In this document: piece by piece, positions 7,540 through 61,854 of the stretch
How positions within the stretch are numbered: the stretch's first letter is position 1
Layout of the letters: every line of letters begins with the position of its first letter
Assembly: GCA_902788095.1 (NCBI GenBank)
Contig: CADAIT010000010.1
Coordinates: 1-64,000, forward strand
Length of the DNA stretch: 64,000 nucleotides
From: an uncultured Bacteroidia bacterium
GTDB taxonomy: Bacteria > Bacteroidota > Bacteroidia > Bacteroidales > UBA932
Direction of reading: 5' to 3'
Notes under the pieces: generated by a model
Told to the model about the DNA's origin: nothing
The model's database searches: none
What the model saw: the letters and a program-made list of their open reading frames with translations, nothing else
Position numbers and translations under genes: made by a program

Positions 7540-7547
7540 TTCCTGTA

Positions 7548-8353: not shown

Positions 8354-9130
8354 CTATATCGTCACGCTGAAACTCACCGGTCCGTCCCACTCCTTCACCG
8401 TAATGGTAAAGGTTGCCGTGGGCGTGTCAACCAAAATCTCAACGTCACTCAAGTCTGTCTTGTTCCAGTCAAAACCGGCCTGCTGAATCAACCATCCCAC
8501 GGGATAGGATTCCATCAAGCTCCCGTCATGGCTATATAGCGCGGCATTGAGATCGGCGTCCATCTGTCGGGGAACGCGAAAGGCAAACCCTCCCTCCAAA
8601 GGCTCTTCGGCCGTACAGGAAAACCGCCCGGGAACAGGCGCCAATGTCTGCACATCTATGCCGGCAACAGTCCCGCTGACATCCAACCGGCAATCGGCCG
8701 GCCTTCCGTTCTCTTCGTCCTTGAAGATGACGGACACAGTGGAAAAGTTCTTATGCAGCCGAATGGTTTCATGGGCGAATTCCGCATCCGTATTCACCTG
8801 CGTAGTGCTGGCGAACAGGCTGTCCATCTGGGAGCCTTCCGTAATGGAAAGAACCTCTCCTTCCAGAAACAGCCCAGGCGCCTCCCTATAGGCCGATAGC
8901 CGCACCTGCCCCCGAGGAACCCGGTATTCGTGAAAGTCGTCCCGCTGACTCCGAGGAATACTCTCCGAGAAAACCGGTGCCGGACACCAAGCCTTGAGCT
9001 GGACGTAGGCCCCATTCGTCTCCGAAAGATCCACCGTCAGCCAGCACGGGCAGTCGCTCCGGTCCTCTTTCACCGAGCAGGAACACAGGGCCATCAGCCC
9101 CAGTATCCCTATAATGGCAACATGTTTCAT
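8354..9130 (-). CDS. FimB/Mfa2-type pilus anchor lipoprotein
   Basis: 258 aa. Lipoprotein signal MKHVAIIGILGLMALCSC, then the DRSDCPCWLTVDLS block typical of the FimB/Mfa2 family near the mature N-terminus. In Bacteroidales type V pili this protein anchors the fimbria in the outer membrane and limits its length. It is the last gene of the operon and overlaps the preceding stop by 4 nt. The mature domain is a beta-sandwich of the expected size, slightly short for the family (about 300 aa). Confidence 0.8.
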   Translation of the reverse strand: MKHVAIIGILGLMALCSCSVKEDRSDCPCWLTVDLSETNGAYVQLKAWCPAPVFSESIPRSQRDDFHEYRVPRGQVRLSAYREAPGLFLEGEVLSITEGSQMDSLFASTTQVNTDAEFAHETIRLHKNFSTVSVIFKDEENGRPADCRLDVSGTVAGIDVQTLAPVPGRFSCTAEEPLEGGFAFRVPRQMDADLNAALYSHDGSLMESYPVGWLIQQAGFDWNKTDLSDVEILVDTPTATFTITVKEWDGPVSFSVTI

Positions 9131-10494
9131 AGGCCTCCCTCCAAAACCAGGTTGTCAATCTCTGCCACATTCCCGTGAACCCTCCATTGGTTTTCTGAAA
9201 TTTCATTCACTGCCGCCCGGCTCACGACTCCGCCCCTAGGCCATACATTCGCATACTCACTGGGCTCGCCTTTCAAGGTAATCGTGTTAATCTTGTAGCA
9301 CATATTGGGCTGCAAATGATGCAGGTAGAAAGGATAATAGTAGTTCTTTCCGTTGATTTTTACGGCAATCACCAGTTTATGGAAGCGGTCCTGACCACTT
9401 TCCGGGTCGAAGGCTGGCTGTGAAAAGTAGGCAAACAGGCAAGTCGGAAGCGTATAGAACACTTTGTTCACGGCAAAAGGTCCCAGACTGCCTTCGTACT
9501 CATCACACAGCTTGCCGCTGTTCTTGGGAAGGTAGGCATTGTTGTCCCAGCTTTGCTGCGACACGGTCACAAGCGATGCCGGAGCATCCAGGCAAATGGT
9601 GTTCTTCGGCTGCATGTAATTATTGTTGTACAAGTAGTCAAAGGCATCGTCCAACTTGCCACCAGCTCCCCAGTCGCCGGGGACGTAGGTGTTGTCCAGC
9701 TCGGCAAATGTGAGCCCGTATTGGCTCCATTCATCCTGCCCCAAGAACTGGTTGGCGTTGTAGTATAGGCTCGACAGACTCCCGAGAGTCTGTCCGCTAC
9801 TCCAGCCTTTGGGGCCGAAGATATCAGACGGTTCCCCTTCAAAGTTCGCCGCATTGGACTGGCAGATCCGGACAATGTCCCAGCTGTTGCTAAACACAAT
9901 GTGGCTTAGGTAGATGTTCCGGAATTTGTCCGGATCACCCCAAAACTGCGCGTCAATGCTGCCAATCTCGAACTTGGCAGCATAGCGCCATAAACTCACG
10001 GTAGCGCCCTGAGTGCCGTAACTGTTAAAGGTCGCTCTAGCCGTTCCTGCCATGATGGGCCTATTGGGACGGCAGTTTCCTGCGCTCCATGGGATATATC
10101 CCTTGGGGTAACCGTTTACCTCCGCTCCGCTGAGTGTAGCGATATAATCGGCGCTGTCTTCATCCAGGTTGGCCAGAAAAAGGTAATATCTTTTTTCACC
10201 GTTGGCTCCATAGTCCCTGAATGAAATACTGCTCAGATTCATCGCGTTCCCTTCGTCCTCGATGACCTTGTGGAAAAGCAGTGAGTTTGAGTCATCATAG
10301 GCGTACACATCGATGCGGTCAACTTCGTCATCCACGTTGTCTGCCGCCAGGCTTTTAGTGTCTGCCTGATCATACCCTTGTACACCCATTCCAAACTCCA
10401 CGAAGGCATCGGCTTCCGGTGTTTTTTCTTTGTCACATCCGGCCAGTGCCAGCAGCATTGCCGGAATCAGTAATCGGATGGTCGTTCTTCTCAT
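9127..10494 (-). CDS. Fimbrillin-like pilus subunit (probable tip/accessory)
   Basis: 455 aa lipoprotein (LLIPAMLLALAGC). Fimbrillin hallmarks: early DRIDVYAYDDSN strand, ANL at about 110, a basic RYAAKFEIG stretch, and the late block KINGKNYYYPFYLHHLQPNMCYKI, which in FimA/Mfa-type proteins begins the last strands. It is larger than stalk subunits and sits between another large subunit and the anchor, which suits an accessory or tip component such as Mfa3-5 or FimC-E. Exact role not determinable. Confidence 0.75.
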   Translation of the reverse strand: MRRTTIRLLIPAMLLALAGCDKEKTPEADAFVEFGMGVQGYDQADTKSLAADNVDDEVDRIDVYAYDDSNSLLFHKVIEDEGNAMNLSSISFRDYGANGEKRYYLFLANLDEDSADYIATLSGAEVNGYPKGYIPWSAGNCRPNRPIMAGTARATFNSYGTQGATVSLWRYAAKFEIGSIDAQFWGDPDKFRNIYLSHIVFSNSWDIVRICQSNAANFEGEPSDIFGPKGWSSGQTLGSLSSLYYNANQFLGQDEWSQYGLTFAELDNTYVPGDWGAGGKLDDAFDYLYNNNYMQPKNTICLDAPASLVTVSQQSWDNNAYLPKNSGKLCDEYEGSLGPFAVNKVFYTLPTCLFAYFSQPAFDPESGQDRFHKLVIAVKINGKNYYYPFYLHHLQPNMCYKINTITLKGEPSEYANVWPRGGVVSRAAVNEISENQWRVHGNVAEIDNLVLEGGL

Positions 10495-10497: not shown

Positions 10498-11799
10498 TCA
10501 ATAGATTGCGGTACCGGTATCGTCGGTATAGCCGGTGTCAATATTGGAAATGGTCACTTCATCCCAGTCTTGAACAGACAGGCTGGCATCCATGCTGTAG
10601 TACTTGACGAAGAAATTGGAGTAAGGGGAGCCTTGGCTCTTGATAGTCACCTTATCCAACTTATACACCGTATTGGGCTGGGTACAGCTCATCAGCATGG
10701 GATAAAAGTAGGATGTCCCATCCACAGATAGCTCAATGACCAGTTTGGGATTGGTGTTCTGCGAGTAGTAGTCACAAAGCATATTCATAGATCCTCCCAA
10801 AGTACCACCGGCAAGGGCCAGGAAACTCTTGTTCACTATGAGCTCATGCGACTGGTTGGGATTTGTAGACGAGCATACCCGACCCTCCCCACTGGCAATG
10901 TCGTAACGCTGCGTCGAGAAATTTTGCATCGCGGCATTCTCTCCGTCCAGGGTAAGAACGCCTTTTTCCTTCAGGACGTTCCAGTTGTACATTACGTAGT
11001 ACGACCCTATTTCGGTGTTTTCGGTATCCCTCAGCGTATACTGCTTATTGCTGCTGAAGGATTCTCCGTGATAACCCTGTGTCAGCCCTCCGAATCCTTC
11101 AAAAAGGCTTCCCCTGAAACCCAGAAAAGAGGCCGGAACCTCGAAGGCGCGTCCACTATACCAGGAGCGGTTCAAAGAAATGACATTGGGGATATTGATA
11201 AGTGCAATGGTCTTCACAAAAACATCCTTATTCATCCAGCTCTCATCGTCAAAGTTCACTTGTATTTTCCCAAAATCGAGGCGGTACACATATCGGTATA
11301 GGTCAACATCAATAGTCCTGTCCATAGTGAAAGACGCCGTGGCACCACCGGCCATGGGAATATTATTTTCGGAAAGAAAACTGCTCAATTGGTAGTAGAC
11401 ACCCCTCATGTTCTCTCCAGTCAGTTTTTTTGCATGATTGACGATATCGTCAGTCAGGTTGGCGTAGAACAGATATGTAAAGCTGTCGTTGCTCAAGTCC
11501 ATCTGTTCATGGAGAGTCATCGAAGAAAGCTCCTCGGCTGTAAAACGGAAATGATCCGGCACAGTGTTGCATCCGTTGCGATAGCGGAAAACATCGATGC
11601 GGTTGATGGCTGAATAGTCTCCACCACCGCCATAGGTCAGGGCTTTGGTCTGTTGCGGATTCAGGCGAAACGTGACTGTACAGGTCCTGCCCTCCAGTTC
11701 GGTTCCGCTGTTTCCGGACACGCCGGGCATCTCCTTGTTACAGGAGACACCGGCGGCCAGAATAACAAGAGAAGATATTACATGCAAAATCTTTCTCAT
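10498..11799 (-). CDS. Fimbrillin-family subunit
   Basis: 433 aa from ATG 11799 (MRKILHVISSLVILAAGVSC, lipoprotein cleavage before Cys). The longer frame above it runs into the upstream gene. INRIDVFRYRNG, FYANLTDD and, near the C-terminus, VDGTSYFYPMLMSCTQPNTVYKL match the fimbrillin pattern of the neighbouring subunit. Gap to the upstream gene is 10 nt and to the downstream gene 3 nt, so they are co-transcribed. Probably a minor structural subunit of the same pilus. Confidence 0.75.
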   Translation of the reverse strand: MRKILHVISSLVILAAGVSCNKEMPGVSGNSGTELEGRTCTVTFRLNPQQTKALTYGGGGDYSAINRIDVFRYRNGCNTVPDHFRFTAEELSSMTLHEQMDLSNDSFTYLFYANLTDDIVNHAKKLTGENMRGVYYQLSSFLSENNIPMAGGATASFTMDRTIDVDLYRYVYRLDFGKIQVNFDDESWMNKDVFVKTIALINIPNVISLNRSWYSGRAFEVPASFLGFRGSLFEGFGGLTQGYHGESFSSNKQYTLRDTENTEIGSYYVMYNWNVLKEKGVLTLDGENAAMQNFSTQRYDIASGEGRVCSSTNPNQSHELIVNKSFLALAGGTLGGSMNMLCDYYSQNTNPKLVIELSVDGTSYFYPMLMSCTQPNTVYKLDKVTIKSQGSPYSNFFVKYYSMDASLSVQDWDEVTISNIDTGYTDDTGTAIY

Positions 11800-11809
11800 G
11801 GCTGTAAGT

Positions 11810-12823
11810 TTAGATGTTAACACCTTCGGTAACAGGAACCACATTCCAGGTCAGAACGTTCACCTCGAAGGTGGCGTCCTTGAAGGAAACAGGCTGGTCC
11901 GGGTCATTGGAACCGGGACGGGTCAGGGTGAGATTCTCAATCTCGTAACTCTTGTTGGACTCCAGGGCAGGGAGGGTGATAGGATAATAGTAAGTGTCCG
12001 TGCCCAGGGTGGTCTTCAATACCAGGCGCGTACGGCGAGGGCTCCATACGGCTGCGGAACTGTCATCGGCCGCATTCGGATAGGCAAAAAACGTATGGTC
12101 CGTGTCATAGTTGGCATTGTTGGCAATGGTGGCCGCCGGAGCGTCATGGGTGAAGGCTGGCTGCTCACTGGCGTAGGCCTGCTTGTTGAACCACACAGAA
12201 GGACTTGCCGTCTTGCCGAAATTGATGTCACCGGCTACGTTGGTGATGAAAATCTCATCCACCGTGAAGTTCTTGGCGGCCAGTGAAGACACCGTGAAGG
12301 CGCGGGTGATTTTCTTAATCACAATACGAGCTGCCATACGGGTTACATCCACCGTAATAGTGTTGGCCTGCGGAAGGGTTACCGACTTGCTGCCAATCAT
12401 CTGGAAGGAGTCGTCACTGTTCTGGGAGAGCAGCGAAGTGGTAGCCAGCAGGGCCGTCTTGGTGCTGATTTCAGCCAGGCTGGGCGCATTCACCACGGCG
12501 TACACCTCACGTTCACCAGCGGTGCAGCTCAGGGTGATTTCAGATGCATCGTCCACGCTACCATAGGCGTCCAGGGCGTCGCCACGGAACACCAGCACCT
12601 GCAGGTTGTTCACCTTCACCTCATCGGCCTCCGTGATGGTTGTGGACTTCGTCTCCCATGCGCCCTTGATGCCCACGCGCAGTTCACACAACTGCCCGTC
12701 ATTGCCGGCCTGACCGGCAATCTCTGTGTCATTCTGAGCGGAGCGAAGAATCTCCATGTTCTTGTTGCACGCCACGGTGCAAAGCGTTGCGGCCACGGCC
12801 GCGAGAAATGCAATTTTTTTCAT
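11810..12823 (-). CDS. Major fimbrillin (FimA/Mfa1-like) with repeat-encoded insert
   Basis: 337 aa. Lipoprotein signal MKKIAFLAAVAATLCTVAC. NNLQVLVFRGDALDAYGS, VYAVVNAP, RMAARIVIKKI and TYYYPITLPALESNKSYEI are standard fimbrillin blocks. The end (FEVNVLTWNVVPVTEGVNI) fits a donor strand used for type V pilus polymerisation. Its size suits the stalk subunit. Directly after the lipobox, MEILRSAQNDTEIAGQAGND is encoded by two palindromic repeats (12698-12724, 12727-12755) inserted in frame. Because they fall in the propeptide region, removed in known type V pilins, they may be tolerated. Confidence 0.8.
   Translation of the reverse strand: MKKIAFLAAVAATLCTVACNKNMEILRSAQNDTEIAGQAGNDGQLCELRVGIKGAWETKSTTITEADEVKVNNLQVLVFRGDALDAYGSVDDASEITLSCTAGEREVYAVVNAPSLAEISTKTALLATTSLLSQNSDDSFQMIGSKSVTLPQANTITVDVTRMAARIVIKKITRAFTVSSLAAKNFTVDEIFITNVAGDINFGKTASPSVWFNKQAYASEQPAFTHDAPAATIANNANYDTDHTFFAYPNAADDSSAAVWSPRRTRLVLKTTLGTDTYYYPITLPALESNKSYEIENLTLTRPGSNDPDQPVSFKDATFEVNVLTWNVVPVTEGVNI
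12698..12755. repeat. Two palindromic dispersed repeats inside the fimbrillin gene
   Basis: 12698-12724 contains ATTGCCGGCCTGACCGGCAA, self-complementary around CCGG. 12727-12755 contains TGTCATTCTGAGCGGAGCGA followed by AGAATCTCC. Related copies occur at 13481, 15707, 15760, 16597, 20388, 20435, 20476, 46891 and 50195. Confidence 0.85.
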
Positions 12824-12836: not shown

Positions 12837-14924
12837 TTAAAGGGTTTGTGAATAAATATCAGAAAGGTTATACCTTTTGATTAGTTCGCTGATTTCCGGG
12901 TCCAGATTGCCCCGGTGCCAATAGGATGGCGTTAGGTCGCAGGCTTTCAGATACCGTTCTACAGCCTCCTTATTCTTTCCCTGGCGGCTATAGATGACAG
13001 CCAGCATATAGTCAATCTGGGCCTTCATGCCCGGCTCCGACCGGGCATCTAGTGCCTCCAGAATGGCCAGCGCCGATGCATTGTAATCCATAGCGCAGAA
13101 AGCCACCGCCGTATTGTAATCCTGATAAGGCCTCAGAAGGGTGATGGCCGTTTCATAATCCCGGTCGCGGATGGCCTGCACACCGGCCATATACTCCTCA
13201 TCCAGCACGGTGGTTTGGATGGTATCCTTCACCATTCCTTTCCGGTGCAGGTGGAAGTCGAACTTCACCGTACGCAGCCTCGGATACAGGTCCTCACGCA
13301 AATGTCTGTAGTACTCGGCATGAGCCAGCGCCCATTCCCGCTGGTCCACGTCTGCAATAGCAGCCAAATCCTTGTACTCCTGCTTCTGGAATGCGGTCAA
13401 CAAGGTATCCTCAGCCACCAGCACATCCAACATCCGCCAGTTCTCCGGATTACTCCTGGAGATAAACCGTACCTCCGGGCTGTCATTCTGAGCGGAGCGA
13501 AGAATCTCATCGTCAAGACTATCGAAGTAATAAGCCGTTTCCGCTTCCTTCCTCATTTCCTCCCGGTACTCCCGGATAAAGTTGTCAAAGTACCGGCTCA
13601 CAGATTCACTTCTGCGTTGGGAAAGTCTTGTATTGAACGGCATCGTTCCTTCCGGAGAGCAGCTTGCAGTCACCACGATGGAATCCAAATCAAACTCCCG
13701 GTTTTCAATCAGGCTGGCCAAGTTCTCCTTGATGCGTCCCATCTCACTCTGGTTATGGCTCAAGCCCTCGACAATCTCGGCCGAGCCCTGCTCAAAGTCA
13801 ATGTAGCAAGCCGTATTCGCCTGCACCCTCCGGCTGATAATCTGCTTTTTGTATCGAGGCGTCCCATCCACAAAAGCCGATAGGCTGCTGATATAGTAAG
13901 TCAACGGCTCCGTAGCAGGAATCTCGTACAGGCGCTTGTCCTGCTTGTAGATGTCACCGGAAAGCACCACGTCCACCTTCCTAAGCTTCGGCCGGGTGGC
14001 AATGGTCTGCACATAGTTATAGACAAAGTCTCCATTCTCGGCCGTAATCACGGTATCCAGCCGCAAACCCTCATGAACGATGGGAACGCGGACGTACTTT
14101 TCGAACATCTCGTTTCTTCGTTCCCACCGACGGGCATTGCGGTGCTTGGATATCGTGTTGGTGTAGTGTTCGATGGCTTCACGCCCGGTAACGCCGAATT
14201 CAGAAGCAAAGCTGCTTGCAACCTGGGTATCCAGGATGGCATTGAAATGCTCATCGGCCACTTCGGTGGAATCGACCTTAAAGGCATACAGTTCCGGTAT
14301 ATTGCGCTGAATGAACAACTCAAGCAGGCGCATATTGATAAAACGGGTACTGTCAGTGACAATGCTGGCCAGAAACTTCTCATACTGCTGGTAACCGCGC
14401 AGCTGCGCCTTGCGATATTTGGCCCCGGTGATGATAACTTGGTCCATGTGCAGGGTGTCTTCCATGATGTGCATCTCCGGGTAGAACCGCAACTGCCACT
14501 CTTCGTCCTGCATCTCCTTCGGCACACGAATCTGGAAAGCGATATCTACCTTCCCGTGTCGCTCGGCCACATTCCGGAAACGGGCTTCCACCACAGCAGC
14601 GCTGATGACATCCGTCGCCACCATGTCGCCGTTCTCATCCTTGATGGCCTTCATTAGAATCATCTCATTTCCCTGAGCATCCTGAACCACCAGCGTGTCT
14701 GGCCGCACCACGTCACCTTCCCGGCTTTGGTCCTGCATTTCGTACTGCTCTACCAGGCCGATTTCCGCAGTCATCTGTTGTGCCTGCACCTTCTGAATCT
14801 TACTCGGCCCCGAGCAGCTCACCAGAAGAATGATAATCAGTATCCACTCCAGGATATGCATCATCATCCCGCAGCCCAGCAGAATGGCCATCTTTTCTTC
14901 TTTTGTGTATTCGTCCTGTTTCAT
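12837..14924 (-). CDS. OmpA-domain / TPR outer-membrane lipoprotein
   Basis: 695 aa. A charged ~25-residue cytoplasmic lead is followed by a hydrophobic stretch and LLVSCSG lipobox. Residues ~100-330 are unrecognised. About 395-480 is OmpA-like (IVVTASCSPEGTMPFNTRLSQRRSESV, the peptidoglycan-binding core). About 595-690 holds TPR-like helices (AGVQAIRDRDYETAITLLRPY ... AVIYSRQGKNKEAVERYLKA). Genes like this accompany fimbrillin loci in Bacteroidales and probably tie the assembly complex to the wall. DDEILRSAQND (about 475-485) is encoded by a palindromic repeat at 13481-13509 inserted between the OmpA and TPR parts. Confidence 0.7.
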   Translation of the reverse strand: MKQDEYTKEEKMAILLGCGMMMHILEWILIIILLVSCSGPSKIQKVQAQQMTAEIGLVEQYEMQDQSREGDVVRPDTLVVQDAQGNEMILMKAIKDENGDMVATDVISAAVVEARFRNVAERHGKVDIAFQIRVPKEMQDEEWQLRFYPEMHIMEDTLHMDQVIITGAKYRKAQLRGYQQYEKFLASIVTDSTRFINMRLLELFIQRNIPELYAFKVDSTEVADEHFNAILDTQVASSFASEFGVTGREAIEHYTNTISKHRNARRWERRNEMFEKYVRVPIVHEGLRLDTVITAENGDFVYNYVQTIATRPKLRKVDVVLSGDIYKQDKRLYEIPATEPLTYYISSLSAFVDGTPRYKKQIISRRVQANTACYIDFEQGSAEIVEGLSHNQSEMGRIKENLASLIENREFDLDSIVVTASCSPEGTMPFNTRLSQRRSESVSRYFDNFIREYREEMRKEAETAYYFDSLDDEILRSAQNDSPEVRFISRSNPENWRMLDVLVAEDTLLTAFQKQEYKDLAAIADVDQREWALAHAEYYRHLREDLYPRLRTVKFDFHLHRKGMVKDTIQTTVLDEEYMAGVQAIRDRDYETAITLLRPYQDYNTAVAFCAMDYNASALAILEALDARSEPGMKAQIDYMLAVIYSRQGKNKEAVERYLKACDLTPSYWHRGNLDPEISELIKRYNLSDIYSQTL
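13481..13509. repeat. Palindromic dispersed repeat inside the OmpA/TPR gene
   Basis: TGTCATTCTGAGCGGAGCGA then AGAATCTCA, 28 of 29 positions identical to 12727-12755, in the same orientation and same reading phase (EILRSAQND). Confidence 0.9.
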
Positions 14925-14925: not shown

Positions 14926-15660
14926 TTATATGTGGATTTTTACATCACGGCCAAGGCCCAAGTCAGCCAGCATCGGGTCATTCCGGCGGGCGTTCGTCGG
15001 ATCCAGCGACGCCTTCACCAACTTGTCAAACTCCCTCTGGATGCCGTCCATAGAGTCGGGATGCAACCTGGGGTCCCGGAACCATTTCTCATGGCCCTGA
15101 ATATCGAACATGCCCAGTGTGCTTTCACGGTTACGCGTGGCCCAGTCCTGCGCCTTGTAGGCAAAGTGCTCCACGCCTTGCAGTTTTCCCAGGTACTTGA
15201 AATCCTGAATCACATCGTACCCGTGCATGGGAGAATGCATCACCCCGCCGATGGAATTCACCAGCGACATGCTCCCGTCATCGTAGCGTACGCTGTAGAA
15301 GCCGGGGCAGGCCTCCTTCACCTCCGTCACCACGTGTTCCTTTTGAAGTTGCTCAATCCCGGGGTTCCTGATCTTGAAAAGGTCCTCCCGCATGGCAGCG
15401 CGCTCCTTGGCGGCAATAATAAGCTCCTGGGCAAGGCGAACATCCTTAATGTCCTTGGCATTGACGCCCTCGCCGTCATGCTTCAACACCAGCAAGGCCT
15501 TCTTCCCGTCCACGTTCAGAAGCCTCATGCCCCGGATTTCCTGGTGTCCGGGAATGGGACGGACAAAGTCCATCACCCGGCTGGCCTTATCTTTTTCGTC
15601 CAGTGGCTTGCCATATTTCTCCACAAAATGGTACAACTCTTTGTAATTGATTTCTCTCAT
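14926..15660 (-). CDS. Hypothetical cytoplasmic protein in pilus operon
   Basis: 244 aa, no signal peptide. The C-terminal half (GYDVIQDFKYLGKLQGVEHFAYKAQDWATRNRESTLGMFDIQGHEKWF) and Pro/Asp-rich tail match no family I know. It lies 1 nt before the OmpA/TPR gene and 48 nt after the lipoprotein gene, inside a tightly packed operon. A cytoplasmic protein here is unexpected for pilus assembly and might be regulatory, but that is a guess. Confidence 0.65.
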   Translation of the reverse strand: MREINYKELYHFVEKYGKPLDEKDKASRVMDFVRPIPGHQEIRGMRLLNVDGKKALLVLKHDGEGVNAKDIKDVRLAQELIIAAKERAAMREDLFKIRNPGIEQLQKEHVVTEVKEACPGFYSVRYDDGSMSLVNSIGGVMHSPMHGYDVIQDFKYLGKLQGVEHFAYKAQDWATRNRESTLGMFDIQGHEKWFRDPRLHPDSMDGIQREFDKLVKASLDPTNARRNDPMLADLGLGRDVKIHI

Positions 15661-15706: not shown

Positions 15707-15787
15707 TGTCATTCTGAGCGGAGCGAAGAATCTCCTCCGTCATGCCCGCCGTTCTCCCCGTCATGCCCGACCTGATCGGGCATCTCC
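15707..15787. repeat. Palindromic repeats forming the 3' end of the lipoprotein gene
   Basis: 15707-15735 is the TGTCATTCTGAGCGGAGCGA-type repeat. 15760-15787 is a GTCATGCCCGACCTGATCGG-type repeat, palindromic around CCCGA..TCGGG. The last ~25 codons and stop codon of the 414-aa gene lie within these repeats. Confidence 0.85.
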
Positions 15788-16953
15788 ACCGACGCCACAC
15801 CTTCCTGCTGAAACTCCCCGTAAATCCAGAAGTTCCACCAAAGCGTTTCCTCCCGATTGCGGTCGTCCACCAGCTGGTCAATAATGACATACGGGTCACT
15901 CAGCGTAATGATATAGTTCAGTCTTGCCTCGTGAATATTGAACCAGGCCTTGTTCGCCCCCGTCCCAACAGTCATATTCTGTATCTCTTTCTGGATGGCC
16001 TCCGTATCGGCCAGCACAACAGGGGCCTGGTCTTCCTGGTATGTGAAATCCACCTGTCCGTTATACACGGGGATATCCTTCACGGCCTTGTTATTCACAT
16101 CATTCCAAGGCCATCCGGTAAGCGTCCCGGCCATATACACCTGGCCGGTGAGTTTAGAATATGAGTGTTCGGAAATGGATATTCCAGCCTCCGCCATCAG
16201 CGGGTCGTACTCCGCTGTCATGGTCACGTGGCCGTATGAGTAGAGTAGAAAGTAGTAGTCAAAGGCATTGCCAAGCGCATCCGTCACCGTCAGCTTCAGG
16301 AAGTCCCTTCCAGGCTTCTTCGTTTTCAGCATCCAGCTCTGCGCGCCGGTTCTCTCCACAGAGAAAACCTCATTGTCCAGGCTCTTCATGGAATAAGTGG
16401 CCCGCTCGCTGTCACTAGTCACAGTCAGGACCATATCATCCTTATCGGCCAGCACGGAAGGCGTATCCTCTGCCAGCTCCTTTTTGTTACCCATGTCGGT
16501 ACTCACCGCCATTTGCAGCGTCACTATCGGCCGCTGCGGCTTCACCCGCGAATCCACCAGCTGAAACTCTTCCGTCGCCGTCTTCTCCACGGGCCAGTCA
16601 CTCCCGGCTTGACCGGCAATCTCCCCATGACCAAAGGCCACCGCCGTCACAATCAGCTTTCCTTCACCGTTTGCCGTCACCTTGAACTGGTTCGGCAGCT
16701 CATTGGCTTTTAGCATCACCATCTCCGGATCGGAGAACCGCAGTTCAAACCGCTCGCAAATCGCCGTCTTGGGAGAGGGGACAATCGTAATAATTCGCTC
16801 CTCACCATACTCCCATTTCGGGCTGTCATTGTTTATCTCGATCGAGATACTTTTCAGCTCACTATTGTCCGTTACCTCCAGTATCCTGGGGTCACAAGAG
16901 CTTAGGGCTACCGCCGCCGTGGCCATCGCCACAGCTATAAATAACTGTCTCAT
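15709..16953 (-). CDS. Lipoprotein with repeat-derived C-terminus
   Basis: 414 aa. Signal MRQLFIAVAMATAAVALSSC, lipoprotein. Beta-rich mature part (FYF, TMTAEYDPLM) of unknown family. The C-terminal ~25 residues (VEMPDQVGHDGENGGHDGG...) and the stop come from palindromic repeats, so an insertion probably replaced the original end. A further repeat at 16597-16624 encodes EIAGQAGSDW inside the protein. It sits between the DUF3575 gene and the cytoplasmic gene, so it is likely an outer-membrane or periplasmic member of the pilus locus. Confidence 0.7.
   Translation of the reverse strand: MRQLFIAVAMATAAVALSSCDPRILEVTDNSELKSISIEINNDSPKWEYGEERIITIVPSPKTAICERFELRFSDPEMVMLKANELPNQFKVTANGEGKLIVTAVAFGHGEIAGQAGSDWPVEKTATEEFQLVDSRVKPQRPIVTLQMAVSTDMGNKKELAEDTPSVLADKDDMVLTVTSDSERATYSMKSLDNEVFSVERTGAQSWMLKTKKPGRDFLKLTVTDALGNAFDYYFLLYSYGHVTMTAEYDPLMAEAGISISEHSYSKLTGQVYMAGTLTGWPWNDVNNKAVKDIPVYNGQVDFTYQEDQAPVVLADTEAIQKEIQNMTVGTGANKAWFNIHEARLNYIITLSDPYVIIDQLVDDRNREETLWWNFWIYGEFQQEGVASVEMPDQVGHDGENGGHDGGDSSLRSE
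16597..16624. repeat. Palindromic dispersed repeat inside lipoprotein gene
   Basis: GTCACTCCCGGCTTGACCGG then CAATCTCC, the same family as 12698-12724, translated on the minus strand as EIAGQAGSD. Confidence 0.75.
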
Positions 16954-16966: not shown

Positions 16967-17551
16967 TTAGAAGATGTATACGACTGAGAGTATCACTTCA
17001 TTCGGCAGGAAAAACCATTTATGCCCCTGCTCAATGAGTTTCCCGTTTTCTGGATACTCGTATTTCCGGTACTTGGTCCATCCGCCCCAGACGCCCAAGC
17101 CGAAGTCCAGGTTCCAGTGCTCCTTCAGCATCAGGGAATACCCTCCAGAAAGCGCCGCCCCAAAGTCATCTCCTTCCTCTGCCGTCTTGGTGAAGACACC
17201 ACCCCGGTTATATTCCTGGTACTGCGCCTTGCCTCCGACCCACCAGCCGGAATACACATTCCACGGCCACCAACGTGCGCCCACGGCATACACCTGCTTG
17301 CGGCTCTGCTTCTGGTCCGGGTCCGGTTCACTGAACAGCCCGTTCCAGGTGTTGTGCTTGTTGAAGGTCCAGGGATTTACCTTGGCCCCGGCATGCAGAC
17401 TCCAATGCTGCGAAACCGCAGCCGAGCCTTCCACGCTGATGGTGCCCAGGTCAATGGCATCGGCGGCGTTCACCGCCACGGCCCAGGTTTGGGCCATGGC
17501 AGCAGCCGCACTCATTATGAACAAGAAAAACAAAACAACTAACTTTTTCAT
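16967..17551 (-). CDS. DUF3575 outer-membrane protein
   Basis: 194 aa with a cleavable signal (MKKLVVLFFLFIMSAAAAMAQ). NAADAIDLGTISVEGS near the start and the tryptophan-rich YAVGARWWPWNVYSGWWVGG in the middle match DUF3575, a small beta-barrel-like family usually encoded beside fimbrillin genes. The last residue is Phe (VVYIF), as expected for an outer-membrane barrel. It is 14 nt from its neighbours on both sides. Confidence 0.8.
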   Translation of the reverse strand: MKKLVVLFFLFIMSAAAAMAQTWAVAVNAADAIDLGTISVEGSAAVSQHWSLHAGAKVNPWTFNKHNTWNGLFSEPDPDQKQSRKQVYAVGARWWPWNVYSGWWVGGKAQYQEYNRGGVFTKTAEEGDDFGAALSGGYSLMLKEHWNLDFGLGVWGGWTKYRKYEYPENGKLIEQGHKWFFLPNEVILSVVYIF

Positions 17552-17564: not shown

Positions 17565-18611
17565 TTAATAGTTTTTAACAATTACTTTATCCAGTTCTTC
17601 AATACGTTGCACACGAAGGTGAGCCGCCTTATATTCCGGAATAGTAGAGTTGTTTGGCTTCACAATCAGCATCCATTTTGCATCGCACCCATGAATCAGG
17701 TAGTCGGCCAAGGTCTTGTACTCCTCCGTCGAATAGCACCAAGTTCCAACTGATTTCTTCACCTCGTCCGGCGGATCCAGCAACACAAAATCATCGGCCG
17801 TCGGCTCATATTTTTTCAGAAATTCCAACGCATTCATGTTGCACAGCGTCGTACGCTCCATGTGCCTCTTGAGTTTGGCTGATGTCAGGATTCTTACCTT
17901 TTCACGCAGGTTCACATCAAACACCTTCTTTCCGCCAAATGGCAGGCGAATCTCCCGGAACTGGTCCTTCCTGTAGGGCACGTCGGCCGAAGTATTCAGG
18001 ATAAACGTAAGTGCTGCCGAGCGTATCTCGCTATCCGCCGATTTCCGGTTAAGCACTTCAGTCAAGAACGCGAACACGGATTGCTTGAGCGCAAGCTTCA
18101 GGTTGAACTCGATATCCTCGTCATCCAACTCCACCTGGCGCTCCATCCTTACAATTTCCTGAATAACCTGATGCCGCTTCTCCATTTTGAAGTCAACGGG
18201 GTCCGGTATTGCATAATGGAAAATATCCCCATAGCGAATCTGGTCCACCAGGGCATTTACGTCCTCTACAAGTTTGATAAACTCATGATAGGCGCCATTC
18301 GCATTGCGGATGGCCACCTCCTGCAGTTCCTCCAGAATGGGCAGATAGGCCACCTCCATGTCCTTCCAAGCCTTGCACATCATCTTGAACTGTGACAAGA
18401 ATTGCTTGTCCTCTTTCTTCACCAGCCGATAGATATGCATTAGGTCCCTGCATTTATCATTCACAAAGCAAGTCCTTCCATCCATCGAGAAGAACACGGC
18501 ACCTCCGCCCACGAACGGCTCGTAATAGTTTTCAAAGTTTCTCGGCATCATCGACTTGATAAGTTCCGTCTTGCCTTCAAGTCCTCCATACCATTTAATC
18601 AGTGGTTCCAT
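17565..18611 (-). CDS. Dam-like (D12 class) DNA adenine methyltransferase, DPPY altered
   Basis: 348 aa from ATG 18611, 4 nt after the upstream stop. IKWYGGLEGK (residues 5-14) and YYEPFVGGGAVFF (29-41) are the N-terminal SAM-binding motifs of D12-class enzymes. The catalytic motif, normally DPPY, reads LLDPPDEVKKS (about 280), with Asp replacing Tyr. The ~150-residue helical insert between is larger than in Dam. The enzyme may be inactive, or a SAM-dependent regulator. Its position as second gene of a pilus operon, with no restriction enzyme nearby, suggests an epigenetic or regulatory role, by inference only. Confidence 0.65.
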   Translation of the reverse strand: MEPLIKWYGGLEGKTELIKSMMPRNFENYYEPFVGGGAVFFSMDGRTCFVNDKCRDLMHIYRLVKKEDKQFLSQFKMMCKAWKDMEVAYLPILEELQEVAIRNANGAYHEFIKLVEDVNALVDQIRYGDIFHYAIPDPVDFKMEKRHQVIQEIVRMERQVELDDEDIEFNLKLALKQSVFAFLTEVLNRKSADSEIRSAALTFILNTSADVPYRKDQFREIRLPFGGKKVFDVNLREKVRILTSAKLKRHMERTTLCNMNALEFLKKYEPTADDFVLLDPPDEVKKSVGTWCYSTEEYKTLADYLIHGCDAKWMLIVKPNNSTIPEYKAAHLRVQRIEELDKVIVKNY

Positions 18612-18615
18612 ATAG

Positions 18616-19176
18616 CTACAATAGTATTTTAATTCCTGCCTCGCCGCCATAGTGCAGCATCGTTATCTTCGAAGAAAAGTTCACTGGAAGAACACCGCTC
18701 AAAGTCAGCGCCACCCGTGTACCCAAGAAGCATTCAACGCCCATGCGCATATATACACCATATAAGAATTGGACGGTCGGTAATCCTGTCACAATGTGCT
18801 TCGGTAACCTGCTGGCCGGGTCAATCCATTCCACACCAGCGAACACACCAACGCCGGCGTATAGGTTGAACGCCCGGTTCCTGGTCCCTACAAGCCGAAA
18901 CATGTAGCCACCTGCGGCGGCCACATCCATATAGCTCATCTTGTCACCGGTGGATAGGGGAGTGGCGTATAAGTCTCCTGTAATCCCTGCATTCCAATAA
19001 CCGTTTAACGTGTACTGAGAATAGAAGGCTTCAGCGCCCACGGATGTGCCATTGTAGCGGGCAGAAAGCCCAAGTGCAGACTGGCCAGAAATGGTCCGTT
19101 GCGCTGAAGCCGGGATTGAGAAAAACATCAGCATCGCGCCGATTATCATGCAATATTTTGTTCCTTTACTCATCAT
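18616..19176 (-). CDS. TraO-like outer-membrane barrel protein
   Basis: 186 aa. Signal peptide ends at IPASAQ. The sequence is small, alternating and Gly/Tyr-rich (AAAGGYMFRLVGTRNRAFNLYAGVGVFAGVEW), resembling conjugal transfer TraO proteins of Bacteroides. C-terminal GGEAGIKILL fits a last barrel strand. It is the first gene of the ten-gene operon. Whether it is a relic of a conjugation module or a pilus-specific barrel cannot be decided from sequence alone. Confidence 0.6.
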   Translation of the reverse strand: MMSKGTKYCMIIGAMLMFFSIPASAQRTISGQSALGLSARYNGTSVGAEAFYSQYTLNGYWNAGITGDLYATPLSTGDKMSYMDVAAAGGYMFRLVGTRNRAFNLYAGVGVFAGVEWIDPASRLPKHIVTGLPTVQFLYGVYMRMGVECFLGTRVALTLSGVLPVNFSSKITMLHYGGEAGIKILL

Positions 19177-19213: not shown

Positions 19214-19301
19214 ACAATTAGTATCACTGACCGCAAAGATACAGATAAAATTTTGTAACTTCCAAATAATTGCCCTAAATTTGCGCAGTATTACTAATTG
19301 T
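19214..19301. promoter_or_regulatory. Divergent promoters with paired inverted operators
   Basis: Leftward promoter: minus-strand TATCTTTG (19241-19234) with TTTG at 19266-19263. Rightward promoter: TTTG (19252-19255) and TAAATTTG (19276-19283). The 10-bp word ACAATTAGTA (19214-19223) recurs inverted as TACTAATTGT (19292-19301), each copy just downstream of one promoter's -7 box. One dimeric regulator, perhaps the Rep protein, could control both pilus operon and rep gene. Confidence 0.65.
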
Positions 19302-19315
19302 CGGTTTGTAGCAAT

Positions 19316-20383
19316 ATGGGAAAGTCAGCCATTAAAATAGATGCAAAGTCCTGTAATTCAGGCGATAACTTGTATCAAGTTAATGGTGTTGCCTATATCG
19401 AAGGGAATCTGAAGCTCATTCACCTCCGCATCCTCATAGTAATCATCTGTCATCTACAGGAACCTTTGCTGTATAAAATCGCGCGTAAGAAAGCGGGAAT
19501 AGTCATTCCTGAGAAGCTGTTACCACAGCAGGGGAGTCTCACACTAAGAGGCAAGACCAGGACCGTTCAAGTTAAAATTGCAGAATTCGGCCTGACTCCC
19601 CGAAACGGCGGACGCCTAAGGCAATACCTTGAGGAACTCATTGATATTCCCATCGCATTCCCTGGCTACAGAAAAGAAGGAATGATTTTCCCGGAACTAG
19701 TCCACACCTTTCCAGGGCTTATTTCCAATTACAGCTTTCCCATGTACAGCCGTGATGTAGAAATTACATTGCCGGAGCCGCTCGTTCAGCGCTTGCTGCT
19801 TACCGAGGAAGGCTATTCTTCCTATTCACATGCGGCAGCGTTCTCCATTACCAACAAATACACAGTCCGCATTTATTGGCTCATTTGTTCCTGGCGCGCA
19901 AAAGGAGGCTTTGTCATCACCCTGGAGAACCTCCGCAAGATACTTGCCCTGGGTCCCGGTTATGACCGCTTCGAGAACATTACCGCCCGTATCTTGCGTC
20001 CGGCCTCCGAAGAACTGGCGTCCCGTTTCCCCATCTGGTTTCTTTTCAAAACCTTCGGTAGCGGGGAAGACCGCATACTCGTTTTCAAAATCAAGACAAT
20101 CGTCTCGCCCGAACAAATAGCCCAGGACACCAAGTCCGTAAGGGACCTTTGCTGGCATCTGCTGCATAGTGTCGGCGCCAGCCCCACCATCCTGGATCCG
20201 GTCTTGCCGCAAATCGAGCACGAGGATCTCAAACCCTTCCTTTCCAAAATGATGGACCTAACGTCCTACATCAAAGAATCCCATTCATCTCCCCAGCGCA
20301 TCAAGGACGTAAACACCTACATCCGTACCGCCCTCGAAACCTGGCTCTCCGACTGGCGCCTCCGTTACCAAAACCTCGAGTAA
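19316..20383 (+). CDS. Plasmid-type replication initiator (Rep_3 superfamily)
   Basis: 355 aa from ATG 19316; upstream candidates fall in the operator. Two winged-helix halves typical of RepB/Rep_3 initiators: the first around residues 75-140 (PEKLLPQQGSLTL ... QYLEELI), the second around 170-250 (SITNKYTVRIYWLICSWRAK, then ITLENLRKILALGPGYDRFEN and RILRPASEELA). Such proteins bind iterons to start plasmid replication. Seven iterons follow at 20611-20862. A chromosomal location would make this an integrated plasmid or a domesticated regulator. Confidence 0.8.
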   Translation: MGKSAIKIDAKSCNSGDNLYQVNGVAYIEGNLKLIHLRILIVIICHLQEPLLYKIARKKAGIVIPEKLLPQQGSLTLRGKTRTVQVKIAEFGLTPRNGGRLRQYLEELIDIPIAFPGYRKEGMIFPELVHTFPGLISNYSFPMYSRDVEITLPEPLVQRLLLTEEGYSSYSHAAAFSITNKYTVRIYWLICSWRAKGGFVITLENLRKILALGPGYDRFENITARILRPASEELASRFPIWFLFKTFGSGEDRILVFKIKTIVSPEQIAQDTKSVRDLCWHLLHSVGASPTILDPVLPQIEHEDLKPFLSKMMDLTSYIKESHSSPQRIKDVNTYIRTALETWLSDWRLRYQNLE

Positions 20384-20387
20384 CGTC

Positions 20388-20505
20388 CGTCATGCACGGC
20401 TCCGACCGGGCATCTCTTTTTTCATTTCTCCCCTTGTCATACCGAGCGAAGCGAGCGTATCTCCTTCCTTTCCCTTGTCATACCGAGCGCAGCGAGAGTA
20501 TCTGC
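20388..20505. repeat. Three palindromic dispersed repeats after rep
   Basis: 20388-20416 (GTCATGCACGGCTCCGACCG type), 20435-20464 and 20476-20505 (both TGTCATACCGAGCG... with GTATCT ends). They belong to the same dispersed families as those inside the pilus genes but are intergenic here. Confidence 0.75.
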
Positions 20506-20610
20506 ATAGTAGAATATATAGTTAATCTATAGGATTCATATAGTACGGCCATTCCCGTCCTTTCAACACACTGACAACCAATCATTTCCGTACCTCCTCA
20601 TTCCCGTTTT

Positions 20611-20862
20611 CACTACATTTTGAAGACATTTTCGCCCAGATTCACTACATTTTGAAGAACACCAAACTACATTTTGAAGAACTTTATCACTACAAATTGA
20701 AGAACTTTTCCCAGCCTCACTACAAAATGAAGAACTTTCCGTCATCCAGCCCGTTTTTCCCGCCTCTCGAAACGCCATCCAACCTACGAATAGCCCCACA
20801 GGCTCCTACAGCCCACTACATTTTGAAGAACCCACTTTTCTGCTCACTACATTTTGAAGAAC
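20611..20862 (+). repeat. Iteron array, seven copies of an 18-bp repeat
   Basis: Consensus CACTACATTTTGAAGAAC. Copies start at 20611, 20643, 20665, 20688, 20718, 20814 and 20845; the copies at 20688 and 20718 vary inside the ATTTT stretch. Start-to-start spacings are 32, 22, 23, 30, 96 and 31 bp, all close to whole helical turns (about 3, 2, 2, 3, 9, 3), so all copies face the same side of the DNA. The array is the expected binding region for the Rep_3 protein upstream and a probable origin or operator. Confidence 0.85.
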
Positions 20863-20879
20863 TTCAACCAGCAATTCGC

Positions 20880-22145
20880 CTACTTCACCGACACCTTCGG
20901 CAGCTCCGTCCAGCGTGTCGTGTAGCGGGGAGACTTATGCTCCTGGGTCATGTGGAACCGTCCGTCGCCCTGAACCCCAAAGAGCACCGCTCCGGGACCG
21001 AAAACCTTGTTGATACTGTCGATGGAGGAAGACAGACGCTCATCCTTCTCCAGCGCCTTGCTGTCCTCGAAGAGCGAAGACACATGCGCCCCGTTCTGCT
21101 CAATCTTCGTGAAGACCACACCACCTTTCTTGTAGGCATAACCCTCCCGGAAAAGAAACCTCGCCGCATCGGCGGCAGCCACCACAACCTTCCGGTGGTC
21201 CTGCGTTCCTTCCGGGAACACGACATAGTGCCCTCCGCTGGTCTGGGGAAGATACTCCTTGAAGCGGTTGGTAATGGCGAAGACCACCATCTCCAGGGCA
21301 AAAGAATGCTGGGCACGGAGCTTTTCCGTGGCTTTCCCGGCAAAGGTGGTAATTTGCTCCGTGAACTCCTGCAGGGACGTCACATCATGGGAGAAGCTGC
21401 GGGAAACACAGATAGTCTGTTTGGGCTCAATCATGTCCTCAAACTCCACGCAGGGGATGCCCCGGAGCTCCTTCCAGGTCCGGAAGCCCGGTAGGTGGAA
21501 AAGTGTCCGTACCGTGGTCTCCGGAAGCTGCGTATAGTCCCAGGCTGACACAACGCCCATCCCCTCCAGCTTCCGCATGGAACGACGGCCGATGCCCCAC
21601 ACATCCTCCGCAGGGAACTTCCGAAGCACCTTCTCGATATCTTCGGGCCGAAACATATAGCACCCGCCCCGGAGTTTGGGGTATTTCTTGCAGAGCTTGG
21701 AGGCAATCTTCGCAAGGGTCTTTGTCGGGGCAATGCCGACGGAAACGGGGATGGAAGTCTGCTTCCAGCACTCCCGGGAGATGGTTTTTGCAAGGGCGTC
21801 GAAGTCCTGATGCTCCACGCCGGAGAGATCCAGGAAACATTCGTCGATGGAATAGGGCTCCACGGCAGGGGAGTAGGCCCTCAGCACCTCCTGCACCCTT
21901 CGGGACATGTCCCCGTACAGGGCGAAATTGGAGCTGAAGACGGCGATGCCGTGCTGCTCGATAAGGGGCCTCAGCTTGAAGTAAGGGTCTCCCATCTTGA
22001 TGCCCAGCGCCTTCGCCTCATTGGAACGTGCTACCGCGCAGCCGTCGTTGTTCGACAGCACGATGACCGGCCTCCCGTTCAGTTCCGGACGGAAGACCCT
22101 TTCGCACGAAGCGAAGAAGTTGTTGCAATCGGCCAGGGCGTACAT
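20880..22145 (-). CDS. umuC: DNA polymerase V catalytic subunit UmuC (Y-family)
   Basis: 421 aa, full length. MYALADCNNFFASCERVFRP opens the palm with the first catalytic Asp. SIDECFLDLSG (about 104-114) carries the Asp-Glu pair. A helix-hairpin-helix region follows (AEDVWGIGRRSMRKLEGMG). The C-terminal little-finger and UmuC tail are present. The enzyme performs error-prone translesion synthesis. It lies 9 nt after umuD on the same strand. Bacteroidales mobile elements often carry umuDC, and here it ends 17 bp from the last iteron. Confidence 0.92.
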   Translation of the reverse strand: MYALADCNNFFASCERVFRPELNGRPVIVLSNNDGCAVARSNEAKALGIKMGDPYFKLRPLIEQHGIAVFSSNFALYGDMSRRVQEVLRAYSPAVEPYSIDECFLDLSGVEHQDFDALAKTISRECWKQTSIPVSVGIAPTKTLAKIASKLCKKYPKLRGGCYMFRPEDIEKVLRKFPAEDVWGIGRRSMRKLEGMGVVSAWDYTQLPETTVRTLFHLPGFRTWKELRGIPCVEFEDMIEPKQTICVSRSFSHDVTSLQEFTEQITTFAGKATEKLRAQHSFALEMVVFAITNRFKEYLPQTSGGHYVVFPEGTQDHRKVVVAAADAARFLFREGYAYKKGGVVFTKIEQNGAHVSSLFEDSKALEKDERLSSSIDSINKVFGPGAVLFGVQGDGRFHMTQEHKSPRYTTRWTELPKVSVK

Positions 22146-22154
22146 AGGGAAGCG

Positions 22155-22571
22155 CTACGCTTTCTTGATGACCCATGTGACCACTCCCCAGATAAGGAAG
22201 TCATTGTCCGGCCCCACGGGGATGGGATGGTATTTGGTGTTATGCTCGTTGCAGGGGAGAAGGACGGCGCCGTCCTCATGGATTTCCACCCGTTTCACGG
22301 TGTACTCCCCGTCGATGAAGCAGACGGCCTTGCAGTCGTTGTAAGGTTCCACGGCGCGGTCAACGATGATGATGTCTCCTTCGTCCATGTCGGCATCCAC
22401 CATCGACACGCCATCAATGCGGAAGAAGAAGGTCGAGGCGGTATGGCGAACTAGGAGCTTCACCAGGTCCAGCTTCTCGCGGAAGTCATCCGCAGGGGAG
22501 GGAAACCCGGCCTTGACCGTGCCAAGGAGTGCCTGGAAGGAATCACCGTCGTGAATCGGATATGGTTTCAT
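22155..22571 (-). CDS. umuD: UmuD-like S24 peptidase
   Basis: 138 aa. AGFPSPADDF (about 21-30) is the self-cleavage region (C/A-G). GVSMVDADM (about 54-62) has the catalytic Ser and YTVKRVEI (about 90-97) the catalytic Lys. RecA-stimulated cleavage activates polymerase V. It is cotranscribed with umuC. Upstream, TTACTTGCGCA and TTAACTTGCGGG (minus strand, within 22572-22632) form a direct repeat that could be the SOS operator. Confidence 0.9.
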   Translation of the reverse strand: MKPYPIHDGDSFQALLGTVKAGFPSPADDFREKLDLVKLLVRHTASTFFFRIDGVSMVDADMDEGDIIIVDRAVEPYNDCKAVCFIDGEYTVKRVEIHEDGAVLLPCNEHNTKYHPIPVGPDNDFLIWGVVTWVIKKA

Positions 22572-30163: not shown

Positions 30164-30964
30164 TCATCTTAAGGTCCGTCCAAGAAAGAGCCCGGTCACA
30201 CTGGCTGCACCTTCCCCTTTGATCTTCTCGGCGCACTGCGTAAAAGATACGCCACGGGTAATGATGTCATCAAAAAGCAGAACGTGCTTGTTCTCTACAC
30301 CATTGCCGAATTGGAGATTCCAAACGGTATCATCCTCCTTCTGATGCCGGGAGTCCGTTCTGTCGTATAGTATGAAGATATTCTTGTAACCATTTCCGAT
30401 GCCGGTTTGATGGGACACTTGCTCGCAAAAGTCCCTGTTTCTTTTTTCATTCTTCTCCCGGGTTGACGCCGGTATTACGCAGAAAACCCAGTTCTCCCGG
30501 TCACGTTCAGGGATATGTCGGAAGATGTATTCCGTAACCAAATACACTGGAACTTCATGCTTTCCGTCCTTGAATCCCAGAATCAAATCCCGGTTCCTTT
30601 CATCTCTTGGTTTCCGGTCTTCTTTGTCTGGACAGTAGTCAAAGAAGTATGCCGACTTGAAGCCCCCTACGGTCAAAGTCTTATTCAATTTCCTAGGTGG
30701 AAAGATGCGTAGCCATTTACGGATGACATCCGGCCACTTCGGGAGCTTCTTGACTTCCTTTTCTTCACCAGTCCCGATTGCTTGCTGAAATCCAACCTTC
30801 GAGCGCTCATTTTCCTTATTTGCTGCTTCCTCCAGCCTGATTCTTCTGCGTTCCCATTTGGAAACTCGGGTTTTACGAATAGCAATGATGAGAATGACTA
30901 TGCAGATGGGTTCTACAACAGTGAGGAGCACTTCCCACAGAAATGGTAGCTGAGTTTTGTCCAT
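30164..30964 (-). CDS. Membrane-anchored phosphoribosyltransferase-like protein
   Basis: 266 aa from ATG 30964 (MDKTQLPFLWEVLLTVVEPI). One N-terminal membrane helix (about 10-30), a basic linker, then a PRTase-like domain ending with HVLLFDDIITRGVSFTQCAE (about 232-251), the PRPP-binding motif of ComF/type I PRTases. Upstream parts VPVYLVTEYIFRHIPERDRE and CVIPASTREKNEKRNRDF resemble ComF. An N-terminal anchor is unusual for the family. It lies at the edge of the mobile element and may be cargo. Role unknown. Confidence 0.7.
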   Translation of the reverse strand: MDKTQLPFLWEVLLTVVEPICIVILIIAIRKTRVSKWERRRIRLEEAANKENERSKVGFQQAIGTGEEKEVKKLPKWPDVIRKWLRIFPPRKLNKTLTVGGFKSAYFFDYCPDKEDRKPRDERNRDLILGFKDGKHEVPVYLVTEYIFRHIPERDRENWVFCVIPASTREKNEKRNRDFCEQVSHQTGIGNGYKNIFILYDRTDSRHQKEDDTVWNLQFGNGVENKHVLLFDDIITRGVSFTQCAEKIKGEGAASVTGLFLGRTLR

Positions 30965-31202
30965 AATGCTTGCGGAGGGGTTACCGCCCGGCACCGTTGC
31001 CGCTTCGGGCCCTCCGAAGCCACAAAAATATACAAAATTATCCGTGTTATCCGTTTTTAAACGTTTAACTTTCTTTTCGCTGAAAATCAGCAAGTTACAA
31101 AGGTTACTAAACGGCTTTTTGTGCGTTTTTTGTTCAAAAACTGCATTCAGCGCATCTCTAAGGCCATTTTTACCGAAACGGATTTGTACTAATTTTGAGC
31201 TC

Positions 31203-31617: not shown

Positions 31618-31774
31618 ATACTGCTGCAAAAATAGCGCAATTTGGTTAGTGTTGCAAATTATAGGGGTGCTATGCTGATTTAATAAATAGTATTACTTAC
31701 TTTTGCATCGAATTCAGATAGGCGCAAAAGATGCCTCCCGCCGTCAGTCCATTTGACCCGTTAAGGGCAAATTG

Positions 31775-31824
31775 CAAGATGTGCGTTTGTGCTACAAACG
31801 CCGCGCCCTGAAGGGCTCATCTTG
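31775..31824 (+). other. Candidate oriT hairpin
   Basis: Outer stem CAAGATG (31775-31781)/CATCTTG (31818-31824) encloses a perfect 8-bp stem GCGTTTGT (31783-31790)/ACAAACGC (31794-31801) with a 3-nt loop. It lies between the RHH gene and the MobC-like gene, upstream of the relaxase, where Bacteroides mobilizable elements carry oriT. The nick site was not identified. Confidence 0.6.
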
Positions 31825-31882
31825 TACGCCTGCGGCGGACGAAAGGCTCCGGAGTCGCCTTTCTGAGGCCAACGGCCTATTA

Positions 31883-61851: not shown

Positions 61852-61854
61852 CGC

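Follow-up and report, generated by a model that had tools for sequence, protein, structure and literature searches.

A probable integrative mobilizable element of Bacteroidales with a Rep_3/iteron replicon and a divergent type V pilus operon

The rep gene and the pilus operon

In the stretch of 64,000 nucleotides that we analysed (hereafter the window), a gene encoding a Rep_3-type replication initiator lies back to back with ten minus-strand ORFs that form a pilus operon, which runs from 19176 down to 8354. The rep ORF spans 19298-20383 on the plus strand and its first ATG is at 19316, placing the gene at 19316-20383 (+). The divergent arrangement of a plasmid-type initiator and a ten-gene pilus operon, claimed by a first-pass annotation of this DNA, is thus borne out.

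The operon, all of it on the minus strand, opens with a gene for a TraO-like protein (18616-19176; Pfam TraO, 9e-11), followed by genes for a D12-class DNA methyltransferase homologue (gene 2, 17565-18650; Pfam, 1.5e-12) and a DUF3575 protein (gene 3, 16967-17551; Pfam). Genes 4 (15709-16953) and 5 (14926-15660) have no Pfam match, and gene 6 (12837-14924) encodes an OmpA/TPR protein whose Pfam matches are below the cut-off. Gene 7 (11810-12823) encodes a FimA-type fimbrillin (P_gingi_FimA, 3.8e-7, above the cut-off) and gene 9 (9127-10494) an Mfa2-like anchor with a Pfam match of 4.5e-4, just below the cut-off, while genes 8 (10498-11844) and 10 (8354-9130) have none. FimA/Mfa-type stalk and anchor pilins are therefore found in one operon, as in type V pilus operons. 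The D12 homologue, perhaps lacking catalytic motif IV, may be a DNA-binding protein instead of an enzyme, since the [DNS]PP[YFW] motif was found in none of the seven homologues tested (those of the window and of loci L028, L035, L037, L038, L043, and L131). No such homologue was found in L026, L027, L030, L032-L034, L047, and L048. To the left of the operon, at 5107-7626, genes for an AbiEi-type antitoxin, an unknown protein, and a PP2C phosphatase stand in a row, the latter two with weak PDC-M21 matches.

When compared with Pfam, the product of rep matches Rep3_C above the cut-off (1.1e-4) and Rep3_N below it (0.002). Among solved structures, a profile built from 21 relatives matches plasmid F RepE (2e-10) and the pi protein (5.5e-5). 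In the predicted structure (pLDDT 87, pTM 0.85), which has RepE54 as its best PDB match (TM-scores of 0.80 and 0.52 when normalized by target and query length, respectively), there are two winged helices (WH1 and WH2) and an extra C-terminal helical domain that distinguishes it from RepE. As modelled, Rep is thus RepE-like in fold and profile, with the WH1 and WH2 of Rep_3/RepE-type initiators; the comparison with the RepE/ori2 system of plasmid F concerns the protein. By analogy, Rep is a putative iteron-binding protein. The alignment of Rep (A2) has 21 rows, of which the window's corresponds to 19316-20383 and nine begin at the start of similarity rather than at a start codon. The gene appears to be under selection to work, since dN/dS was 0.04-0.18 in each of eight pairs of rep relatives, although these share members and are not all independent. 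We discarded a viral origin of rep, no relative having been found among the viral contigs searched.

A candidate origin downstream of rep

Seven iterons with the consensus CACTACATTTTGAAGAAC form a candidate oriV array at 20611-20862 (+), identified by repeat search, shuffles, and comparison with relatives. They start at 20613, 20645, 20667, 20690, 20720, 20816, and 20847, which confirms the spacings of 32, 22, 23, 30, 96, and 31 bp reported in the first pass. While the window has seven copies, no more than three were found in any of 40 dinucleotide shuffles, and a degenerate pattern (CTACANNNTGAAGAAC) has six matches in the assembly (2.16 Mb, 83% complete), every one of them inside this array. 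Phased direct repeats thus lie beside rep, as in iteron replicons. Two near-identical 32-nt copies around TGTCATACCGAGCGAAGCGAG, a motif with five matches in the assembly at one mismatch or fewer, occupy 20431-20503 between rep and the iterons. Directly after the iterons, at 20880-22571, are UmuC and UmuD homologues, which among 29 loci are otherwise near rep only in the distant L053.

The iteron scan covered 24 loci (the window and 23 from a named collection), with L036, L044, and L051-L054 outside it. Copy numbers were above all 40 shuffles in 21 of these loci, tied with them in L026, and were not above them in L042 and L047, the latter having no iterons that we could find near rep. A 32-22-22 spacing (each within 1) was found forward in 15 of the 24 loci and mirrored in another 5 (L030-L034), a conservation on which the first-pass annotation had counted. 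Spacings were 31, 22, 32, and 22 in L049 and L050, and 32, 22, and 52 in L042, where the array lies ~1.1 kb further on. Two distant loci have 31, 23, 22, and 20 (L051) and 31, 23, 22, and 22 (L052). The sequence of the iterons varies from lineage to lineage while this layout recurs, and plasmid pBF9343 has yet another iteron sequence 3' of its rep, with spacings of 32, 22, 22, 22, 253, and 42. Since the layout recurs in relatives with different iterons and in pBF9343, the array is most likely an oriV, from which autonomous replication is predicted. A 32-22-22 layout that is common to pBF9343 and is kept as the iterons change makes initiator-iteron specificity testable across lineages.

An AT-rich stretch at 20508-20547 (+), with 75% A+T and 5' of the iterons, is a candidate unwinding element. 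We drew up a motif for it, GATTCWATTTGTA, by eye from some of the same 13 loci that were then searched with it. It matches in nine of the 13 at a distance of 77-82 bp ahead of the first iteron, and in one (L045) at 58 bp, outdoing all 200 shuffles in 7 of these 10 loci. The match in the window itself is weak, its three mismatches being equalled in 12 of 200 shuffles, and those of L027 (17/200) and L026 (83/200) are not above shuffles either; none was found in L028, L029, and L048. In L030, a match with three mismatches, taken without a shuffle control, is found beyond the mirrored array, where box and array look to have been inverted together. No DnaA box was found at 20381-20900 using the one consensus TTATCCACA with up to two mismatches.

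Could Rep and its iterons have ceased to replicate anything and act solely as a pilus switch? The conserved linkage of rep to pilus genes (see below) and the chromosomal position of the locus speak for such an exaptation. We consider it highly improbable, because the spacing of the iterons matches that of a plasmid origin and an AT-rich box is found in several relatives, because the array lies downstream of rep, away from the pilus promoter, and its searched pattern is nowhere else in the assembly, and because mobilization genes travel along. Moreover, compared with other lineages, L030-L034 have the whole array turned around, yet it still lies downstream of rep.

A mobilizable element that ends at a tRNA gene

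To the right of the origin lies a set of plus-strand genes encoding a MobC-like protein (31772-32311), a single-strand binding protein (SSB, 32331-32639), a MobA/VirD2-type relaxase (32677-33915), a TraG/VirD4-type coupling protein (33921-35816), a DnaG-like (CHC2/Toprim) primase (36531-37424), and an HTH_17 protein (37429-37749), which by its inferred role is a candidate excisionase. They are followed on the minus strand by a gene for a tyrosine integrase (38094-39404; Phage_int_SAM_5, 1.7e-8; Phage_integrase, 1.7e-4, below the cut-off) and by a tRNA-Ala(GGC) gene (39517-39590), the 3' end of which is toward the integrase and which is the candidate attachment gene. Ahead of the mobilization genes, the C-terminal part of the product of 30164-31222 resembles ShosT of PADLOC (1.2e-12), so that the element may carry a defence gene here.

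The tRNA gene coincides with a step in sequence identity. When compared in 250-base steps with G005, a genome of another species in our genus sample, the window is 94-100% identical up to tRNA-Ala and 75-88% beyond it, and the step that contains the tRNA is 91% identical. This marks the right boundary of the element and argues for recent transfer. At E values up to 1e-80, we found homologues of the gene on the right of tRNA-Ala in 30 of 101 genomes. An integrase of the same family (56-57%) adjoins tRNA-Ala(GGC) in G047 and G104, while in G103 a different integrase lies beside tRNA-Asp. The mobilization module has tRNA-Lys genes nearby in G065 and tRNA-Pro in G053, two loci at which we saw no homologue of the window's integrase.

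No attL was found: the window begins at the start of the contig and contains no repeat of the tRNA neighbourhood, the whole assembly has no second copy of the tRNA 3' end at three mismatches or fewer, and repeats in the contigs of G047, G103, G104, and G065 include no att pair. No empty site was read among the 14 loci scanned, in which this tRNA-Ala is present only at the G005 locus. An attL that was not found, in an assembly without reads, would suit a stably integrated and decayed plasmid remnant without function. We nevertheless regard a remnant as very unlikely, since the rep genes of relatives are under purifying selection and the mobilization end is far better conserved in another species than the adjoining chromosome, as seen above with G005.

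With a tyrosine integrase at one end and a relaxase with other mobilization genes, the locus has the components of an integrative mobilizable element (IME). Apart from the OmpA/TPR protein and TraG, no VirB4-sized ORF was found in 1-39.5 kb, with the left end lying beyond the contig and small ORFs partly scanned. We think it very probable, judging from gene content and sequence comparison, that the window from 1 to ~39.5 kb is an IME of gut/rumen Bacteroidales with a Rep_3/iteron replicon. The integrase would excise the element, which would then replicate as a plasmid from the candidate oriV through Rep and would be moved by a helper conjugation system, the need for a helper being inferred from the lack of a VirB4-sized gene in the available part of the element. 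The rep locus is thus neither a stray plasmid scar nor the site of a lone regulator. The integrated plasmid proposed in the first pass came close, in that the replicon is of the pBF9343 Rep_3/iteron type, but an integrase and a tRNA-Ala boundary point to an IME rather than a plasmid. Further to the right, the region 59000-62000 has a lower G+C, of ~0.42, around an ORF of 807 aa (59351-61774).

Several known elements share parts of this design. The Rep of pBF9343 is 28% identical to that of the window over 84% of the query, and in both cases rep is followed by iterons and then by mobC and a relaxase gene. However, pBF9343 is a free circular conjugative plasmid of Bacteroides with tra genes and another iteron sequence, and its gene table, which PLSDB calls incomplete, shows no pilus operon or tRNA-linked integrase. 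Salmonella genomic island 1 (SGI1), as described in the part of PMC7433901 available to us, is likewise integrated, has a rep gene with an iteron oriV immediately downstream, and, given a helper plasmid, replicates once excised; its rep is preceded by an HTH_17 gene, which we count as a further likeness. In contrast, its Rep is of the RepA_C type and its rep is activated by AcaCD of the helper, and that part of the paper mentions no pilus operon divergent from rep. According to the available section of PMC5704250, the Burkholderia IME BcenGI2 resembles our element in its Rep_3 protein, its tyrosine integrase, and its location at the 3' end of tRNA-Ala, although it belongs to a different phylum and no pilus is stated there. 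The Bacteroides IMEs NBU1 and NBU2 also have a tyrosine integrase at tRNA 3' ends and a MobP relaxase, but their table rows in the same section give no Rep_3 replicon or pilus. Replicating IMEs with Rep replicons are thus already known (SGI1 and BcenGI2), and the new part is the recurrent pairing of a replicon with a pilus. Searches of titles and abstract openings, with most subscription journals outside their scope, found no Rep-linked pilus operon in the literature and no pBF9343-like origin in tRNA-linked Bacteroidales IMEs paired with a type V pilus.

Pairing of rep with pilus genes and control of their promoters

Nine of 101 genomes in the genus sample, the window's own included, have a match to rep, one of which is distant (G021, 25%). 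In all seven other homologues with at least 37% identity, a TraO-like gene lies divergently beside rep. Similarly, rep is head to head with a TraO-like gene in 22 of the 29 loci of the named collection (7 of the 22 being the same contigs as in the genus sample), so that the linkage in related genomes that the first pass asked to be checked is present. In L031 the contig edge is reached beside rep, and L049, L050, and L051-L054 have no head-to-head TraO-like gene; L049 and L050 have rep with mobilization genes and no pilus within the stretch fetched. MobC follows within the fetched stretch in 12 of the 22 linked loci and further on in L035, and in the remaining nine the contig stops within 5.6 kb of rep. 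Two linked loci, L036 and L044, are from bins titled Erysipelotrichaceae and Fibrobacter, on contigs of 7.3 and 3.1 kb that are probably misplaced. Since DUF3575 is found in 91 of the 101 genomes and a close rep in 8, most DUF3575 loci of the genus are without such a rep.

We compared gene distances across 13 elements, some of them near-identical, using element genes only and no chromosomal control. Distances of rep, the TraO-like gene, the relaxase, and TraG correlate at r 0.89-0.97, and those of DUF3575 at 0.71-0.82. By this measure, the pilus leader gene belongs with the backbone, and rep tracks it (r 0.95) no more closely than it tracks TraG (r 0.97).

Two related elements differ in their initiator. 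In G019 (L131), where mobilization genes are also present, the pilus operon is close to that of the window (94% protein identity for FimA and 97% for OmpA/TPR), but the element (L131 15470-19480) has no rep homologue and no iteron array; by eye, a palindrome-like stretch is left at about 15713-15737. On contig C46 of G065 (L130), a different Rep_3 gene (Rep3_N, 9e-17) is the first gene before a pilus operon of the TraO-like/DUF3575 kind; the contig also carries mobilization genes and, upstream of rep, GGGACTT-type repeats seen by eye. In the stretches fetched around relatives of this second Rep in G030, G087, G095, G003, and G067, pilus genes of this kind were not seen.

The intergenic region of the window contains the only two copies of ACAATTAGTA in the 64 kb, an inverted pair of candidate operators at 19214-19223 (+) on the operon side and at 19292-19301 (-) on the rep side. 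Each lies just past a -7-like box, TATCTTTG for the operon (19234-19241, -) and TAAATTTG for rep (19276-19283, +), both assigned with the -7 consensus TAnnTTTG. The 10-mers start 10 nt (operon) and 8 nt (rep) past the box, so the inverted word described in the first pass is where it was said to be. Divergent and overlapping, the two promoters share a core whose length hardly varies among lineages.

The inverted arms reach 16 nt, are 88% complementary, and are 56 nt apart. Since they flank both promoters, and surface loci of Bacteroidales often have invertible promoters, the arms might be recombination sites. We give this hardly any weight: inversion of the 88-bp span would leave the promoters paired, and in the assemblies of three near-identical groups (L028/29/36, L030/32/33/34, and L041/42/46) the ~50-nt core has the same orientation throughout, with no second orientation found. 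Palindromic operators, which we seemed to see by eye in several leaders, were also rejected, as only 2 of 16 leaders had p < 0.05 against shuffles.

We compared the 32 nt after each -7 box. The two leaders of the window are more similar locally than base shuffles (p = 0.003). Across 13 lineages, including L048, whose box looks misplaced yet stayed in the permutation test, a lineage's own leaders match better than cross pairs (mean 13.7 versus 10.7, p = 0.001; positional score, p = 5e-5). Singly, the match has p < 0.006 in 4 of 12 lineages (the window, L027 with 0.004, L028, and L044) and 0.051 in L026, while in the other 7 (L030, L035, L037, L038, L043, L045, and L047) leaders are no better than shuffles. 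In L035, an inverted word pair further from the promoters was noted by eye. The matched words differ by lineage, as expected if the site follows its protein. Their occurrence in both leaders of 4 to 5 of 12 lineages suggests shared control, and for some lineages it is likely that one protein binds both promoters.

The protein that suggests itself is Rep, since RepE-type dimers bind their own operator (as in the title of PDB entry 2z9o, for repE), and a reference title in PMC4980987 describes pi as an autorepressor. Autorepression by Rep would perhaps also cover the pilus promoter. In this proposal, to which we attach less weight than to the element itself, Rep dimers would bind the matched sites just inside both back-to-back promoters, repressing rep and holding the pilus operon down as well. 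As excised copies multiply, their iterons would draw Rep off and relieve the pilus operon, so that pilus production would coincide with the mobile state of the element, in which cell contact aids its transfer. The regulatory step from Rep to the pilus, taken alone and drawn by analogy, is tentative, and we would sooner doubt it than rely on it. The full scheme, a family of replicating IMEs in which one Rep-bound operator pair sets both rep and a type V pilus and iteron titration frees the pilus when the element is ready for transfer, is speculative and, taken whole, unlikely.

Alternatively, the pilus operon might simply ride along, the matched words serving another protein (the methyltransferase-like protein, the HTH_17 protein, or a host regulator) and Rep only replicating. 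This explanation, which accepts the element and its replicon and departs only at the control step, falls somewhat short of an even chance in our estimate. It accords with the retention of the pilus operon without rep in G019, with rep tracking TraG as closely as the pilus gene, with the seven lineages whose leaders are unmatched, and with the lack of a clear match between operator and iteron, whose similarity within lineages was not clearly better than between them (p = 0.09, 10 lineages). Against it are the head-to-head position of rep in 22 of 29 loci, the matched leaders of L027 and L026, where no methyltransferase homologue was found, and the second element, in which a different Rep_3 gene comes first in front of a pilus operon. 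As for the first-pass idea of a Rep protein repurposed to switch the pilus, it is unneeded to account for Rep and the iterons, since the array has an oriV layout shared with a plasmid and the distances of rep follow those of TraG as closely as those of the pilus gene, but shared control of the promoters retains some support, as matched leader words recur.

If our reading is right, pili would in some cases be a mobile-element trait of gut Bacteroidales, and a replication initiator may double as a regulator of a surface fibre. With control by Rep, the element would itself encode an adhesive fibre that aids contact, while borrowing its mating pore. The family offers natural variants: matched and unmatched leaders, inverted origins, an element without rep, and a second Rep in a like role.
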